Source: Evansella clarkii (GTDB lineage Bacteria; Bacillota; Bacilli; Bacillales; Salisediminibacteriaceae). From it: a DNA stretch of 63,235 nt. Position numbers and translations under genes: made by a program. The DNA lies in NCBI RefSeq assembly GCF_002019695.1, contig NZ_KV917376.1, positions 3,592,293 to 3,655,527 of the forward strand, read 5' to 3'. Under the pieces are notes generated by a model. The model was given only the letters and a program-made list of their open reading frames with translations. It did not search any database and was not told the DNA's origin. Numbering within the stretch: the stretch's first letter is position 1; every line of letters begins with the position of its first letter. This document shows, piece after piece, positions 26,169 to 32,889 of the stretch.

Positions 26169-26675
26169 TTAACTAATTTCTTCCTGATTTATAAGCTGGC
26201 CTTTCCCTGCCTGCCGGATGCACTTTTTAATATCGTTGATTGCCTGTGTATGCATTCCTTCATGAAAAGCCGTTCGGACTAAAACCTGCTCAATAGTAGT
26301 GTAGTGCTCCATGCTTGTTGGCGGATATTTCTCTTCCAGCCGATGACCGTAGCGCTCTTTTATGTCTTTAATTTGGTTTTCAAGCATTACTTTCAGTTCC
26401 TGAAATGAAGGCGTTTCTTCTGTAAATTTATCAGGCGTTGTTCCAAAGCCGAACCACTGATTGAACTTCTTCATTGTTTCGTCTTTTTCACCAGTGACGT
26501 CTAAAATCCATAAGTATTGATCGAGATAAGTATGTCCCATGTTCCAGCGGATGTTATTTCTGAAGCCATCAGGGACTATTTCCGCCTCTTCTTCTGTTAC
26601 ATCCTCAAGATCATCTGATAAATACATCCGATATGTTTCTAACGACTTGAATAACGCTTCCTGCCTCTCATTCAT
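26169..26675 (-). CDS. DinB-family protein
   Basis: A 168-residue four-helix DinB/YfiT-type protein. The metal-ligand histidines are in MGHTYLDQYLW (near 47), FHEGMHTQAI (near 137 and 141), the usual three-His arrangement. Homologues are metal-dependent thiol transferases acting with bacillithiol on reactive compounds. It lies between two GyrI-like genes in the same operon, which fits a detoxification theme. Family is clear; substrate is not. Confidence 0.82.
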   Translation of the reverse strand: MNERQEALFKSLETYRMYLSDDLEDVTEEEAEIVPDGFRNNIRWNMGHTYLDQYLWILDVTGEKDETMKKFNQWFGFGTTPDKFTEETPSFQELKVMLENQIKDIKERYGHRLEEKYPPTSMEHYTTIEQVLVRTAFHEGMHTQAINDIKKCIRQAGKGQLINQEEIS

Positions 26676-26717
26676 ATTGCTTCCCTCCCTAAATGATACC
26701 CATGAACCTTTTTCAGA

Positions 26718-27209
26718 CTATTTCTTAACAATTGGTATCCAGATTTCAAAGTGTGGATCCTGCAGGTCCCTGTCATGGGGATACTTTTCGTGCTTAATTG
26801 GAAGTGTATCCTCAAAATACATAACATTTGGCTCGGTATAAGCTTTATATTCGCTTTCCATTAACAAGCGTGAAATTTTATAATATGTTTCACCTATATC
26901 TGCACCTTTTTCATGATTGGTTACAAAATAAGTAAGCTCCGGAATATATTTTTCAATCATCCCTTCCGGAACAGGCTGCTCTTCTGTAACTTCATACATG
27001 GAGTAATGGATAAAACCGTCCGGCCGTTCATGGTAAGATAACCCTAATTGCATATTCGGCTCAACTCTGCCCTCAAGTTCTCCGGCACGCTCACTCATCG
27101 TCTGTATCACTTGTTTTAACTGCTGGATGTCCGACCATGGACCATCCCACTTTAAACCAATTGCCCGGTATGATTTCTTTTTTACGATTTCAAATGTCGT
27201 ATTTGCCAT
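26718..27209 (-). CDS. GyrI-like effector-binding protein
   Basis: A 163-residue stand-alone GyrI-like protein (KSYRAIGLKWDG, LGLSYHERPDGFIHYSMYEVTE, LTYFVTNHEKG, HFEIWIPIVKK). It has the two pseudo-repeats expected of the fold and no DNA-binding domain. It is third in the operon. Stand-alone members bind or hydrolyse small cationic or electrophilic molecules. Confidence 0.8.
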   Translation of the reverse strand: MANTTFEIVKKKSYRAIGLKWDGPWSDIQQLKQVIQTMSERAGELEGRVEPNMQLGLSYHERPDGFIHYSMYEVTEEQPVPEGMIEKYIPELTYFVTNHEKGADIGETYYKISRLLMESEYKAYTEPNVMYFEDTLPIKHEKYPHDRDLQDPHFEIWIPIVKK

Positions 27210-27238
27210 TTTTTATCTCCCCTCTCCAGACGATTCCT

Positions 27239-27631
27239 CTATTCCTTTTCCTCACAAAACATAATTTTATTTCCTTCGCTGTCGAGTACTTCAAAAAATT
27301 TTACTCCTTCTCCCCCTTCAATATCTGATTGGATGTCAGCCTTTTTCTGTTTCAAAAATTCATAGGTTTTTTCTATATCATCTGTGTCTATCATAAAAAG
27401 ATGATTTGTACTCGGTCTTAATGTGTCACGGTGCATACTATCCAAAATGAGGTTCGTTCCCCCTAATGGAATGGAATAAATCGTCTTCATATCAGGTGTG
27501 GCTGTCTGCATGAATTCCTCGTCTTCCGGGAGTCCTAAGATATCTCTGTACCACTTAACTGCCCGGGGCATTTGATTGACTATTGCAAAAACTCCCCCTA
27601 TGTTGGGGCGGATTGCACTATGCCTTTCCAT
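27239..27631 (-). CDS. VOC-family (glyoxalase/bleomycin-resistance) protein
   Basis: A 130-residue vicinal-oxygen-chelate protein with two beta-alpha-beta-beta-beta modules: FAIVNQMPRAVKWYRDILGL and NHLFMIDTDDIEKTYEFLKQK, ending GNKIMFCEE. The final Glu position common in metal-binding members is retained. Members sequester or modify toxic compounds. It is second in the operon and paralogous to the VOC gene just upstream. Confidence 0.85.
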   Translation of the reverse strand: MERHSAIRPNIGGVFAIVNQMPRAVKWYRDILGLPEDEEFMQTATPDMKTIYSIPLGGTNLILDSMHRDTLRPSTNHLFMIDTDDIEKTYEFLKQKKADIQSDIEGGEGVKFFEVLDSEGNKIMFCEEKE

Positions 27632-27675
27632 ATTCCTTTTTCACCTTCCCACTTATCGTCGTGTTATTTCTTCCT

Positions 27676-28059
27676 TTACTGGCATATCATGATGTGATTT
27701 CCGTCTGGATCTTTAAAAACAAACCACTGGTAGTTTTCCACTTCTGTTACAAGTTCTGCACCCATTTCTTTCATAAAGTTATAGGAAGCATAAATATCCC
27801 CGGTCCTGAACATAAATGCTGGGGCGCTGTACGGTGAAACCCCTTCTTCATCATTCCCGCCCCACATTGGCATTTCGTCTAAAATCACATCAGGCCCTTC
27901 CATTGGTAATACATATAAATGACCGAATTCAACTTTGCCAGTTTCAGGAATGCCAAGCATTTTACAATACCAGGTCTTTGCTTTTTCCACATTCCTGACC
28001 GGGATAAAAATACTGCTGACCTTCCTTTGAATCGGGCTTGCTTTTACCTCTTTATTCAT
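27676..28059 (-). CDS. VOC-family protein, first gene of operon
   Basis: A 127-residue VOC protein (SIFIPVRNVEKAKTWYCKML, FMFRTGDIYASYNFMKEMG, FKDPDGNHIMICQ). It is the first gene of the minus-strand five-gene operon and a likely duplicate of its neighbour. The promoter should lie in 28060-28144; I cannot pick out a clear one. Confidence 0.85.
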   Translation of the reverse strand: MNKEVKASPIQRKVSSIFIPVRNVEKAKTWYCKMLGIPETGKVEFGHLYVLPMEGPDVILDEMPMWGGNDEEGVSPYSAPAFMFRTGDIYASYNFMKEMGAELVTEVENYQWFVFKDPDGNHIMICQ

Positions 28060-28177: not shown

Positions 28178-28200
28178 CAAATTCTTAAGCCCAGTGCATG

Positions 28201-28233
28201 AAAAAAAGCTGCTGAGAAAATATTCTCACCAGC
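28201..28233 (-). terminator. Terminator of the small secreted peptide gene
   Basis: On the minus strand GCTGGTGAGA pairs with TCTCAGCAGC, followed by seven T residues (28201-28207). It lies 35 bp after the peptide stop, supporting the peptide as a real transcription unit. Confidence 0.88.
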
Positions 28234-28268
28234 CCGTATGTTTATGTTAAATTGCTTTCTTTATTTTA

Positions 28269-28382
28269 TTATCCATGTGTGTATGGCGGCGGGGCATGTG
28301 GATGTTCGGTTCCAGCTAATGAAGATAGCGGTAACGTAAAAAGAAATGCACTAACCATTCCAACAATCAGAAGTTTTTTCAT
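28269..28382 (-). CDS. Small secreted peptide, candidate pheromone precursor (37 aa)
   Basis: A 37-codon gene encoding a basic MKKLLIVGMVSAFLFTLPLS signal sequence followed by a short mature part ending EHPHAPPPYTHG. ATG 28382 sits behind a strong AAGGAGG site, a TATAAT -10 lies at 28475-28480 and a terminator follows. It is divergent from an RRNPP-type regulator. The layout (signal peptide plus short variable C terminus) resembles PapR and NprX precursors, so I infer an exported signalling peptide processed to a C-terminal fragment. No homologue was recognised by sequence. Confidence 0.65.
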   Translation of the reverse strand: MKKLLIVGMVSAFLFTLPLSSLAGTEHPHAPPPYTHG

Positions 28383-28474
28383 GTATATTCCCTCCTTTTT
28401 TTCTAATTATTGCATATAGGTAAATTCCCTGCATTTTCGAAAAACAGTTAATACAGGCAATTATCTGAGCTATT

Positions 28475-28480
28475 ATTATA
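28475..28480 (-). promoter_or_regulatory. -10 box of peptide gene promoter
   Basis: A perfect TATAAT on the minus strand, about 95 bp before the peptide ATG. The -35 region is poor (AAATAG at 17-bp spacing), as expected of a promoter needing an activator. Confidence 0.6.
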
Positions 28481-28504
28481 CAATATCCCTTTTTCTTCTA
28501 TTTT

Positions 28505-28520
28505 GATTAACATATTAATC
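28505..28520. promoter_or_regulatory. Candidate operator of RRNPP regulator, peptide/regulator side
   Basis: GATTAACATATTAATC, whose reverse complement GATTAATATGTTAATC is found exactly in front of the protease gene at 29482-29497. Its near edge is 25 bp from the peptide -10 box, centred near -44, a typical activator position. It also covers the leader of the regulator gene just before its ribosome site, suiting autoregulation. Binding is inferred. Confidence 0.65.
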
Positions 28521-28535
28521 TTCAGGAGGTTTCGG

Positions 28536-29414
28536 ATGGATTATACGTTAGGAGACAGAATAAGAGATTTGAGAGAACACTTAAATATGTCACAAAGAGA
28601 ATTATGCAGGGATATTTGCACACAAGGACTTATAAGCAGAATTGAAACAAATACAGCTACTCCCACTGCCCCGGTTTTACACCAGATAGCAGTCCGTTTA
28701 GGGGTAGATTTAAATTACTTTTTTGATGATATATCCAGGGACGGCCTGAATTATGTGAAGGAAGTAATGAATACGATCGATAAGTATATCCGGGACCAGG
28801 AATATGAACAAGTAATGGAAATTGTGGAACTTGAAAAGGACAACCCCCTGTTTAACAAAAAGCATTTGCAGCAGTACCTGTTATGGAGAGAAGGAATATG
28901 TGTGTATTATCTGCATAACGATGCTGATCATGCGTTAGAACTTCTCGATAATGCTTTTAATATGGGGAAGTCAGAGAAGAAGTTTTCTGAAGTGGAAATA
29001 GATATTTTGGCTTCTAAAGCAATCATTTACAGCCTTATAAAAAAACTGGATGATGCAGCTAATATATACAGAAAAATTATAAGAGACGTCACCTCTCTCC
29101 GTGTAGTTCAGAATAAGCGTTTAGTTATTCGTGTTTTATACAATGCCAGCAGAAATGCCTATGACAGGCATGAATACGGAGAAGCATTAGACTATATTAA
29201 TAAAGCATTGAACACATGTATTAAAGAGCAGCAATTATATCTGCTGGGACACATTCTTTTTCAAAAAGGCAGCACACTCTTCCGCTACGATCCCGCGGAG
29301 AAAGAAACCTGTATTAAATTGCTTGAAGAAGCTCTCTGGGTCTATGAACTGGATCCAGTGCCAGCTTTTATCACAGCCCTTAAAGAAGAAATGACATTGA
29401 TAAGACAAAGTTAA
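28536..29414 (+). CDS. RRNPP-type regulator (PlcR/NprR-like HTH-TPR)
   Basis: A 292-residue regulator. An N-terminal XRE helix-turn-helix (GDRIRDLREHLNMSQRELCR, then TQGLISRIETNTATPTAPVL) is followed by about 220 residues of paired helices typical of TPR repeats (for example YEQVMEIVELEKDNPLF, ALELLDNAFNMG, ANIYRKIIRD, EALDYINKALNTCI). This is the PlcR-sized peptide-sensing layout. ATG 28536 is chosen because AGGAGG is 6 bp upstream; an earlier TTG overlaps the operator. It lies between a divergent peptide gene and a secreted protease gene that share its presumed operator. Confidence 0.85.
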   Translation: MDYTLGDRIRDLREHLNMSQRELCRDICTQGLISRIETNTATPTAPVLHQIAVRLGVDLNYFFDDISRDGLNYVKEVMNTIDKYIRDQEYEQVMEIVELEKDNPLFNKKHLQQYLLWREGICVYYLHNDADHALELLDNAFNMGKSEKKFSEVEIDILASKAIIYSLIKKLDDAANIYRKIIRDVTSLRVVQNKRLVIRVLYNASRNAYDRHEYGEALDYINKALNTCIKEQQLYLLGHILFQKGSTLFRYDPAEKETCIKLLEEALWVYELDPVPAFITALKEEMTLIRQS

Positions 29415-29422
29415 AAAATATG

Positions 29423-29457
29423 AAAGCCCCTCTTCCGACATGGAACGAGGGGTTTTC
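29423..29457 (+). terminator. Terminator of the regulator gene
   Basis: AAAGCCCCTC pairs with GAGGGGTTTT around an internal loop, followed by TTTTC on the plus strand. It separates the regulator and protease transcripts. Confidence 0.85.
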
Positions 29458-29481
29458 ATATAAATTCTATCTTTTTCCAGC

Positions 29482-29497
29482 GATTAATATGTTAATC
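29482..29497 (+). promoter_or_regulatory. Candidate operator upstream of the protease gene
   Basis: GATTAATATGTTAATC, identical and in the same orientation relative to the downstream gene as the copy in front of the peptide gene. An AGAATAAG sequence lies about 25 bp downstream, near the same distance as the peptide -10 box. The protease ATG is 144 bp further on. Confidence 0.6.
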
Positions 29498-29640
29498 CCT
29501 TTTTACAGAAAACTTCATCAGAATAAGCAAATAGTCTGCTAATGGGGAATACTTGCGTATTAAAAGGTTTTTTGGTGTTTTTAATATCGGAATATTTAAA
29601 ATAATATATAAACTAATCTATTAAAAGGAGGAAGACAGAA

Positions 29641-30735
29641 ATGAAGAATATGAGGTTCATAGGGTTTATTGTTGGGTTTTTACTAGCTTTCACATTCACT
29701 TTTTCAGCGGTGAGTGCAGATAGCAAAGGTGTCGAAAAGTTTGATTACTTAATTGGTTTTAAAGACAAAGTTAATGAGAACACAGTTACCCAGCTTGGCG
29801 GCGATGTCCAGCATGAATACGAGTATATGGAGGTTCTCCATGTAACCTTGCCGGAAAAAGCTGCGGCAGCACTGAAAAAGAATCCGAACATTGCCTTTGT
29901 GGAAAAAGACGAAGAAGTAACGGCCAGCCAGACCATTCCTTGGGGCATAAACCGTGTTCAGGCACCAACCGTCCATTCCTGGGGAGCCCGCGGTAACGGA
30001 GTAAGAGTTGCTGTTCTTGATACTGGTATTGCAAGCCACGAAGATTTAAGAATTTCTGGAGGAGCCAGTTTTATCAGCTCGGAACCTTCCTACAACGACC
30101 TTAATGGCCATGGAACGCATGTGGCTGGAACAATAGCTGCCCGGGATAACAGTTATGGAGTTCTTGGGGTGGCGCCAAACGTTGATCTTTACGCTGTTAA
30201 AGTTCTTGACAGAAACGGCAGCGGTTCACTTAGCGGTATTGCCCGTGGTATTGAGTGGGCTATTACAAATAATATGGATATAGTCAATATGAGTTTAGGT
30301 GGTTCGACTGGATCTACTGCATTAAGACAAGCTGCTGATAATGCTTATAACAGAGGCATTTTACTTGTGGCAGCTGCTGGTAATACAGGCTCTGCAGGGA
30401 TTTCCTTCCCAGCTCGGTATAATTCTGTTATGGCAGTAGGTGCTACAGACTCTAACAACAACCGCGCGTCTTTTTCAACATTTGGAAATGAACTGGAGAT
30501 AATGGCTCCAGGTGTATCTGTATTAAGTACTTACCCTACTAACAGATATGTTTCACTTAATGGAACGTCAATGGCAAGCCCTCACGTCGCTGGTGTCGCA
30601 GCATTAGTAAAATCACGCTATCCAAACGCCACCAATGTCCAAATAAGAAACAGACTGAACAGTACAGCCACTAATCTGGGAAGCTCTTACTATTTCGGTA
30701 ATGGTCTCGTTAACGCTGCAAGAGCTGCGAATTAA
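29641..30735 (+). CDS. Secreted subtilisin-type alkaline serine protease precursor
   Basis: A 364-residue preproprotease. The Sec signal peptide (1-27) ends FSAVSA. The I9 inhibitor propeptide covers about 33-93. The mature enzyme begins near Ser96 ([13 protein letters not shown]) and has 269 residues, the size of high-alkaline subtilisins. The catalytic triad is Asp127 (AVLDTG), His157 (NGHGTHVAG) and Ser310 ([10 protein letters not shown]), with oxyanion Asn248 in AAAGN. ATG 29641 follows AAAGGAGG. It lies directly downstream of an RRNPP regulator and shares its candidate operator, paralleling NprR control of the neutral protease. Confidence 0.97.
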
Positions 30736-30742
30736 TAGAAAA

Positions 30743-30778
30743 GGACACAGGGACAGTACATTGTCCCTGTGTTGTTTT
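30743..30778 (+). terminator. Terminator of the protease gene
   Basis: ACACAGGGACA pairs with TGTCCCTGTGT, followed by TGTTTTC, eight bases after the protease stop. Confidence 0.88.
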
Positions 30779-30843
30779 CATGGTCAACAGTAACCATGTT
30801 TCAAAAAGATTATAGTTCTTTGCTTGAATTTGTACACCTTAGT

Positions 30844-31893: not shown

Positions 31894-32041
31894 AAATAAT
31901 CACCTCAAATTATTCTGGACTACAGGCAGAAAAATTTCCGGCATATGTATCTTTTTAAAGGAAACTATCTTATAGTTTAACATCTTTTTCCAGCGATTAG
32001 TCATTAAAAAAGCTGTCTTTCCAGTTTCCAGGATCTAAACT

Positions 32042-32713
32042 TTAATTACGTAATTTATCTATGATTAAAGGTATTTCCTCCAAATCCTCCACAATAAAAT
32101 CTGCTTTAACGTTATCCCCTTGAGAGTTTCTTTTCCACACCCCTTTCATACCTGCTTTTATAGAAGCCGCTACATCATTTACTGGATGATCGCCAACATA
32201 TATGGTTTGTGATGGTAAAACATTTAGATACTTTAAACATTTTTCAAATATCTTTCGGTCAGGCTTCTTCATTCCTTCCCATTCAGATATAAGTATAGTT
32301 TCAAAATACCTTTCAATACCTAAAGCCTTAATAGTATCCATTTAGAACTTCCCTTTACCATTTGTTATCATTCCAAGCTTAAGATTATGACCCTTTAATT
32401 TTTCTAACGTACTAATAAGGTTAGGGAATGGAACACAGCTGCTATGAAAATGACTGATATAATCCAGGAGTAGCTCTTCCCAGGTCACAGCCGTGATATT
32501 AAATTCATCAACTAACCTTTGATAGACTTTATCCTTCCAAACATACCCCTTATCATCAAGTTCTATAAATCTTGTTTTGTATCTTTCTATTGGTACATGA
32601 TTTAACCATTTGTTTAATCTGTTATATTGACTTTCAATAAAAAGCTTTACTGACTCATCCCGGTTTAACAAAGTCCCGTCTAAGTCAAATACAATAGCTT
32701 TAATTATATTAAT
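32042..32713 (-). pseudogene. HAD-superfamily hydrolase broken by an in-frame stop
   Basis: A haloacid-dehalogenase-type phosphatase (YfnB/PhnX-like length, about 223 codons) in two adjoining pieces in the same frame. The first has motif I KAIVFDLDGTLLNR and motif II LGMITNG. A TAA at 32342-32344 follows GKGKF. The next codon resumes with MDTIKALGIERYFETI, then motif III (KKPDRKIF) and motif IV VGDHPVNDV. Relatives usually have Gln at the stop position (CAA to TAA). The start codon also seems lost: ATT or ATA stands where ATG is expected after AGGGAG. It is probably inactive unless the stop is read through. Confidence 0.82.
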
Positions 32714-32889
32714 GCACTCCCTAGATTTATTTCTAAGATAAGTACTTTCTGTAAATGACGCCCCCGCCTCTTTAATAAGACAGCGAAACTTTCTGACGCT
32801 ATCACTCATTCTTCAGTTTATTTTTGGCTTTTAATTAGGGAATTTACTACTGAAGTCTTTTGCAAAGCCGATACTTTAATTAAACTTAG

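Follow-up and report, generated by a model that had tools for sequence, protein, structure and literature searches.

A candidate PlcR-type peptide signaling module with paired palindromic operators beside a subtilisin gene in Evansella clarkii

We analyzed a 63,235-nucleotide stretch of the Evansella clarkii genome (contig NZ_KV917376.1, positions 3,592,293 to 3,655,527; here, the window), in which a small peptide gene, a helix-turn-helix-tetratricopeptide repeat (HTH-TPR) regulator gene, and a subtilisin gene lie side by side. The three genes form a cassette that is conserved in related bacteria, the regulator belongs to the RRNPP family, and a pair of palindromic operators flanks the regulator gene. 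Most work on PlcR-type peptide signaling concerns the Bacillus cereus group, where PlcR is a peptide-dependent activator. As judged from sequence, what is new here is a real and conserved PlcR-type RRNPP module on a branch of its own, with operator evidence linking the subtilisin to it and with a distinct peptide ending and a distinct likely DNA-binding site. RRNPP quorum sensing of the PlcR type, though not PlcR proper, is the most likely identity of the module. We consider it likely that the cassette acts as a self-contained PlcR-like peptide-pheromone switch in which the loaded regulator activates its own peptide gene and the subtilisin gene.

A preliminary description of this DNA had named the regulator as an RRNPP-type receptor, and this was borne out by both sequence and fold. 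In Pfam, the regulator matched RNPP_C at 77.3 bits (cutoff, 26.5; E = 1.5e-21) and HTH_3 (E = 3.7e-10). The regulator sequence alone matched PlcR in the PDB (2qfc; E = 6.2e-16), and a profile built from 16 orthologues matched the same entry at E = 3.7e-32, the sole whole-profile match among 25. For the remaining 24 PDB sequences, the strongest stretch was confined to the HTH end (reaching no farther than residue 98) or to a single TPR segment. With an AlphaFold model of the regulator (predicted local distance difference test score, 87.9; predicted template modeling score, 0.70) as the query, the top match of a fold search was the PlcR-PapR7-DNA complex 3u3w (E = 5.3e-12; template modeling score, 0.64; root mean square deviation, 8.0). 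The top five matches were all PlcR, followed by ComR and Rgg. An Rgg/ComR identity was rejected, as TIGR01716 scored 17.4 bits against a cutoff of 36.9 and the PDB matches to Rgg/ComR were limited to the HTH end. NprR-NprX, in which an RRNPP receptor is linked to an extracellular protease, had been the comparison first proposed for this locus. We dropped it because PlcR was the only end-to-end profile match; none of the 25 PDB matches was named NprR. At 292 amino acids, the regulator lies within the range of about 250 to 500 amino acids for TPR/RNPP_C receptors of the superfamily, and, as expected for that superfamily, a small propeptide gene (37 amino acids, divergent) directly adjoins it. 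The same genome encodes a paralogue (L002) with 30% identity to the regulator, beside which a scan with our small-open reading frame (ORF) filter found no peptide ORF.

We looked for the cassette in a family sample of 35 genomes, 16 of which had a regulator orthologue at E = 1.6e-129 or better; several of these belong to Salipaludibacillus, Evansella, and Alkalicoccus. Orthologues outside these 35 genomes were found in Alkalihalobacterium chitinilyticum (68% identity) and Halalkalibacter akibai (58%). Used as the query of genome contigs, the single regulator protein gave no match, and the alignment gave 18 loci. A second A. chitinilyticum locus (L159), reached via its subtilase, brought the set to 19 orthologous loci; we counted it as an orthologue from a 360-bit profile score and a 73% identical subtilase. 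At each of the 19, a small ORF beginning with a signal-like segment ran divergently from the regulator gene, in agreement with the divergent peptide gene reported earlier for the window. At 13 of the 19, a subtilase lay directly downstream of the regulator: 9 family loci of the window's clade, 2 Alkalicoccus loci, H. akibai (subtilase 76% identical), and L159. Relatives with regulator and protease but without a peptide gene would have spoken against the earlier proposal, and there were none among the orthologous loci (peptide present at 13/13 with the protease). The surroundings of the cassette were not conserved in the same way. Among 35 flanking ORFs of at least 100 amino acids in the window and at L074, L075, L078, L077, and L159, only two pairs were alike, both within Salipaludibacillus: a 460-amino-acid gene on the downstream side in L074 but on the upstream side in L078 (81%), and a short ORF in L075 and L078 (68%). 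The window had no flanking ORF in common with the compared loci. These comparisons indicate that the cassette stays together while its surroundings change. In three Salipaludibacillus loci (L075, L076, and L078), a second subtilase stands in tandem behind the first and is 47 to 51% identical to that of the window.

The best evidence was missed in the preliminary description, namely, the pair of palindromes flanking the regulator gene (Table 1). The exact 16-mer occurs at operators 1 and 2 only, both in the window and in the whole 5.48-Mb genome, and its mean count in shuffled windows was 0.00. The core 14-mer, ATTAACATATTAAT, has 21 copies in the 35 family genomes versus 7 for the reversed control. 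The nine genomes with a clade regulator hold 16 of these copies, and 15 of the 16 are inside the cassette, before the regulator at 9/9 loci and, as an exact match, before the subtilase at 6/9. The sixteenth is on another contig (C2) of the window's own genome. The 26 other family genomes hold five copies, three of which are in two genomes with an Alkalicoccus-type orthologue. The A. chitinilyticum genome (4.9 Mb) has a single exact 14-mer, before the regulator at L073.

Alkalicoccus-type orthologues have a different palindrome, TATTCATATAnGAATA, before the regulator at 5/5 loci. At both Alkalicoccus-type loci that have a subtilase, a sequence with the same arms (TATTC-N6-GAATA), TATTCCTGAATGAATA, recurs before the subtilase, at the regulator gene's end. 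The recognition-helix region of the regulator differs with the palindrome, being mostly ICNQSYISKLE with the Alkalicoccus-type palindrome versus ICTQGLISRIE (L036 is mixed). That palindrome and recognition helix differ together fits direct binding of the palindromes by the regulator but does not prove it. A search for a wider regulon gave 21 genome sites at up to 2 mismatches versus 11 for the reversed control, which is too weak to name targets, and within the window at 3 mismatches, there were 2 sites versus 2.06 expected. The one exact 14-mer of this genome outside the cassette (C2, 98404 to 98419; L010/L111) lies 204 bp 5' of a 254-amino-acid ORF, a possible second target. This ORF begins with a signal-like segment, lacks a Pfam match, and, by eye, sits behind sigma factor-like and anti-sigma-like genes. 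An 18-mer, ATCTTTTTCCAGCGATTA, has exactly two copies in the window, one running into operator 2 (29469 to 29486) and one 2.5 kb downstream of the first (31982 to 31999).

The gene positions first given for this locus were exact, and Pfam confirmed the families of the regulator and of the protease (Peptidase_S8; E = 6.7e-66). All NCBIfam names for the protease fell below their cutoffs; that it is an alkaline enzyme is suggested by the named relatives. For the regulator, an alternative in-frame TTG start at 28503 would give 303 amino acids. A mechanical scan for hairpins listed only the one 3' of the subtilisin gene, and the other two in Table 1 were spotted by eye and then folded. Because of the hairpin between the regulator and subtilisin genes, the latter is probably a transcription unit of its own.

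Table 1. Features of the peptide-regulator-subtilisin locus (window coordinates)
Feature	Position	Strand	Description
Peptide gene	28269-28382	-	37 amino acids, MKKLLIVGMVSAFLFTLPLSSLAGTEHPHAPPPYTHG; candidate pro-pheromone; GGAGGG 7 nucleotides 5' of ATG
Regulator gene	28536-29414	+	HTH-TPR with RNPP_C; 292 amino acids from an ATG preceded by AGGAGG
Subtilisin gene	29641-30735	+	S8 protease, 364 amino acids; signal-like start, pro-region, D/H/S motifs (signal and motifs by eye)
Operator 1	28505-28520		Perfect 16-bp palindrome GATTAACATATTAATC in the peptide-regulator gap; ends 15 nucleotides 5' of regulator ATG
Operator 2	29482-29497		The 16 bp of operator 1 inverted (GATTAATATGTTAATC); beyond the hairpin; ends 143 bp 5' of subtilisin ATG
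Possible -10, peptide promoter	28475-28480	-	TATAAT, on the peptide-gene side of operator 1 at a distance of 24 bp
Terminator-like hairpin 3' of peptide gene	28201-28236 (folded 28196-28236)	-	-17.2 kcal/mol, z = -4.83; then seven T
Terminator-like hairpin between regulator and subtilisin	29421-29463	+	-24.6 kcal/mol, z = -6.36
Terminator-like hairpin 3' of subtilisin	30738-30785	+	-27.9 kcal/mol, z = -6.40

The peptide had no match above cutoff in Pfam or NCBIfam. Its N terminus is signal-like (KK, a hydrophobic core, and an A-x-A-like site; by eye and with a simple script), and the precursor is probably exported, with a likely cleavage site after SSLA (by eye) that would leave the tail APPPYTHG. 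The ending Y[TIV]HG is shared by 11 loci of the window's clade (9 family loci, L073, and L077), and the peptide of the twelfth clade locus, L159, ends in YVHSD. By branch, the tails are PPxYTHG in the window's genus and Salipaludibacillus; GPPYIHG, PPDYVHG, and PGYVHSD in Alkalihalobacterium and Halalkalibacter; DIPFKHG at Evansella-type loci; and GLPYKHG, GLPYRHG, and DLP[YF]RHR at Alkalicoccus-type loci. Compared with the peptide ORF of a 95%-identical relative, the closest-relative pair, 14 of 28 silent sites and 7 of 83 replacement sites differ (proportions of 0.50 and 0.08), in addition to one whole codon. Per site, silent change exceeded replacement change in 8/8 pairs, all drawn from the window's clade. 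This constraint and the same position at all 19 orthologous loci argue that the peptide ORF is more than a chance reading frame.

We then placed the regulator within a wider collection of 65 distinct RNPP-like ORFs, 64 of which were scanned for neighboring small ORFs. Counted by eye, 46 of the 64 were accompanied by a small ORF that combined a signal-like N terminus, a ribosome site, and a recognizable PapR-like or clade-type tail. In 34 of these 46, the tail has LP, IP, or FP near its end, resembling the ADLPFEF of PapR. The filter returned no small ORF for the other 18, of which L065, L068, L069, and L085 gave candidates in other scans. Some precursors carry their tail twice (DLPYED in L117 and L122; ELPPLF in L037). 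A tree was built from 62 RNPP-like ORFs and PlcR, with L087, L125, and L090 excluded from alignment and tree as partial, mis-extended, or unrelated. PlcR grouped with a lineage whose peptide tails read DLPYE-x (support, 100/99), and the window's clade lay on the other side. A tree constrained to unite PlcR and the 18 HG/HR-tail receptors was rejected by the approximately unbiased test (P = 0.0006). Two cautions apply: the PlcR branch is long, and the group was named after the tree had been seen.

In PlcR, Q237 and Y275 contact the glutamate of PapR (PMC6568020). The window regulator has H and F at these positions. Position 237 is His in 10 and Gln in 1 of the window's clade, Gln in 8 and Asn in 3 of the DLPYE-x lineage (n = 11), and Glu in 4 and Asp in 3 of the Evansella-Alkalicoccus branch; position 275 is Phe in 7, Val in 3, and Leu in 1; Tyr in 10 and His in 1; and Phe in 7, respectively. 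Lys89 of PlcR, also a contact, is kept in none of the three groups, the DLPYE-x lineage having Gln in 9 and Arg in 2. As to the covariation of peptide and regulator that had been proposed as a check, tails and pocket residues differ by branch, but a strict pairing of peptide Glu with Gln237/Tyr275 fails, since L039, L068, and L069 combine a peptide Glu with Glu at 237. The pocket pattern tracks the tree and is therefore descriptive only.

Compared with known systems, the locus is closest to PlcR-PapR. It shares the HTH-RNPP_C/TPR receptor of about 290 amino acids, the best match in sequence and fold; a small peptide gene beside the receptor (that of the window probably exported); a palindromic operator; and, close to the receptor gene, a gene for a secreted protease, as with the PlcR-controlled nprB (PMC2588459, PMC4701985). 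The differences are as follows. papR lies about 70 bp downstream of its receptor gene (PMC6753895), whereas the window peptide gene is upstream and divergent; the tails are ADLPFEF and PPPYTHG; the window operator is GATTAACATATTAATC and not the PlcR box TATGNAN4TNCATA, for which the best sites in both intergenic regions (28383 to 28535 and 29415 to 29640) had 3 mismatches; the window receptor falls outside the PlcR branch; and the adjoining protease is an S8 subtilase rather than a metalloprotease. PlcRa-PapRa of B. cereus also pairs a PlcR paralogue with an upstream peptide gene but differs in that the CSIPYEY peptide lies inside a 93-amino-acid precursor, the target is abrB2, and the authors found no palindrome (PMC3519770). 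NprR carries a further three-helix bundle (PMC9765709); the window receptor has 292 amino acids in all, and its profile matches PlcR end to end. Given the PlcR-type receptor, the PapR-like LP/IP cores of the wider family, and these precedents (nprB beside plcR and papRa upstream of a PlcR paralogue), the initial placement of the locus outside the known systems was overstated. As far as testable, the locus agrees with all five criteria published for RRNPP_detector, work that yielded 21 new clusters (PMC10075063); the main text of that paper has no match for protease, subtilisin, Salipaludibacillus, Evansella, or Alkalihalobacillus. In the open literature, the titles and opening lines of abstracts among the matches listed described neither this clade of receptors nor a cassette combining peptide, receptor, and subtilase genes in these genera.

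We infer the following course of signaling, from export, trimming, and import through peptide and DNA binding to activation and the direction of control. The 37-amino-acid precursor would be exported; cleaved by signal peptidase, with SSLA as the probable end of the signal; shortened extracellularly to a small C-terminal peptide ending in PPYTHG; re-imported via an oligopeptide permease (the genome encodes 14 SBP_bac_5 proteins, a peptide-import type); and held in the TPR pocket of the regulator. The loaded regulator would then bind the palindromes, activating the peptide gene from operator 1 in a positive feedback and the subtilisin gene from operator 2. Activation is suggested by the gene layout and by PlcR being a peptide-dependent activator. 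Since operator 1 is just 5' of the regulator's ribosome site, the regulator gene may be limited as well, a guess from position. Due to the shared operator and the conserved cassette, the subtilisin is very probably a target of the regulator, as had been proposed.

Several observations weigh against this model. Six of the 19 orthologous loci (L073, two Evansella-type, and three Alkalicoccus-type) have no adjacent subtilase, and subtilases are common, with 31 of the 35 family genomes matching at E = 1e-60 and up to 4 matches in each, though by our estimate their frequency is too low to make adjacency by chance likely. The protease-side site is degraded at three of the nine clade family loci (1, 2, and 2 mismatches) and has 2 mismatches in both Halalkalibacter and the second Alkalihalobacterium locus, where the regulator-side site has 1 mismatch each. 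No Alkalicoccus-type palindrome was found in the two Evansella-type loci. The TATAAT has identical spacing at 4 of 11 loci (L001, L016, L017, and L018) and differs at the other 7. Promoter-like sites in the region numbered 8 versus 7.6 in shuffles, and no subtilisin promoter was assigned.

The first alternative is a repressor: without peptide, the regulator would keep the peptide and subtilisin genes off, and the peptide would lift this repression, as with some Rgg/PrgX-type receptors. In favor of this, a regulator bound at operator 1, so near the regulator ATG, could shut off its own expression, and no promoter was assigned to the subtilisin. However, the TATAAT past operator 1 lacks a good -35 (by eye), an activator-type layout though at the 4 loci only, and the nearest characterized relative is an activator. 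We therefore regard the repressor version as unlikely. It is more improbable still that peptide and regulator form a quorum-sensing pair with the subtilisin as a frequent neighbor and no target. The loci without a subtilase and the degraded operator 2 sites favor this view, but operator 2 is exact at six of nine loci with a single further exact 14-mer anywhere in those genomes, and it lies beyond the terminator that separates the two genes. Subtilases also adjoin receptors of a second lineage and three of the four A. chitinilyticum RNPP genes, as detailed below. It is very improbable that the small ORF encodes a secreted peptide with no link to the regulator, e.g., a subtilisin inhibitor or chaperone, and that the regulator senses something else: peptide-receptor binding is a prediction here, but the peptide ORF is kept at all six orthologous loci without a subtilase, and 46 of 64 RNPP ORFs have such a neighbor.

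Pairing of a PlcR-like receptor with a subtilase was not confined to the window's clade. The DLPYE-x lineage comprises 12 loci (L116 to L124, L126, L127, and L131; L125 excluded), with receptors about 23 to 27% identical to that of the window, a divergent peptide ORF at 11/12, and an adjoining subtilase at 8/12 (one cut by a contig end). Because some of these loci were chosen for a nearby subtilase, and other weak RNPP matches were not included, 8/12 is not an unbiased rate. Where both genes were found (n = 7), peptide and subtilase are on one strand, peptide first and divergent from the receptor, which differs from the window. Two receptors of another branch (L028 and L033) have an S8 gene upstream. 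In A. chitinilyticum, three of four RNPP genes adjoin an S8 gene and all four have a small peptide ORF, with the tails GPPYIHG, PGYVHSD, EDLPHRH, and TELPSEH; the last two belong to L166 and L167, two further RNPP genes adjoining S8. Parsimony gave six changes of the subtilase-neighbor state on the tree (gains and losses pooled; flank lengths vary), with L102 and L103, which have short flanks, hand-marked as subtilase neighbors beforehand.

In B. cereus, nprB lies between yvfU and plcR (PMC2588459), and NprB is under PlcR control and matures PapR at least in part (PMC4701985, citing Pomerantsev 2009). Subtilisin-type enzymes have been proposed to mature Phr peptides (PMC11343458). From these precedents, the subtilisin here may also mature its own inducer. 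As a tentative extension, which we hold to be possible rather than probable, the subtilisin would be both output and pheromone-maturing enzyme, closing a loop by which extracellular proteolysis is sensed besides cell number, with PlcR-like receptors paired with subtilases repeatedly and with tail, pocket, and operator changed together between branches.

Beside the cassette, several small minus-strand genes in a row (26169 to 28059) encode DinB-like, GyrI-like, and two glyoxalase-fold proteins. Farther downstream (32042 to 32809, minus strand), two abutting ORFs resemble by eye the halves of one HAD-type hydrolase, a gene that looks interrupted.

Subtilisins of alkaliphilic Bacillaceae are of industrial interest. 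Taken together, our analysis would extend PlcR-type peptide signaling to the alkaliphilic Bacillaceae as compact modules for which peptide, receptor, and DNA site are all predicted. Because peptide tail, pocket residues, and palindrome vary from branch to branch, nature offers a series in which specificity becomes directly testable. The recurrent pairing of receptor and protease likewise makes the question of the pheromone-maturing enzyme testable within a three-gene unit.

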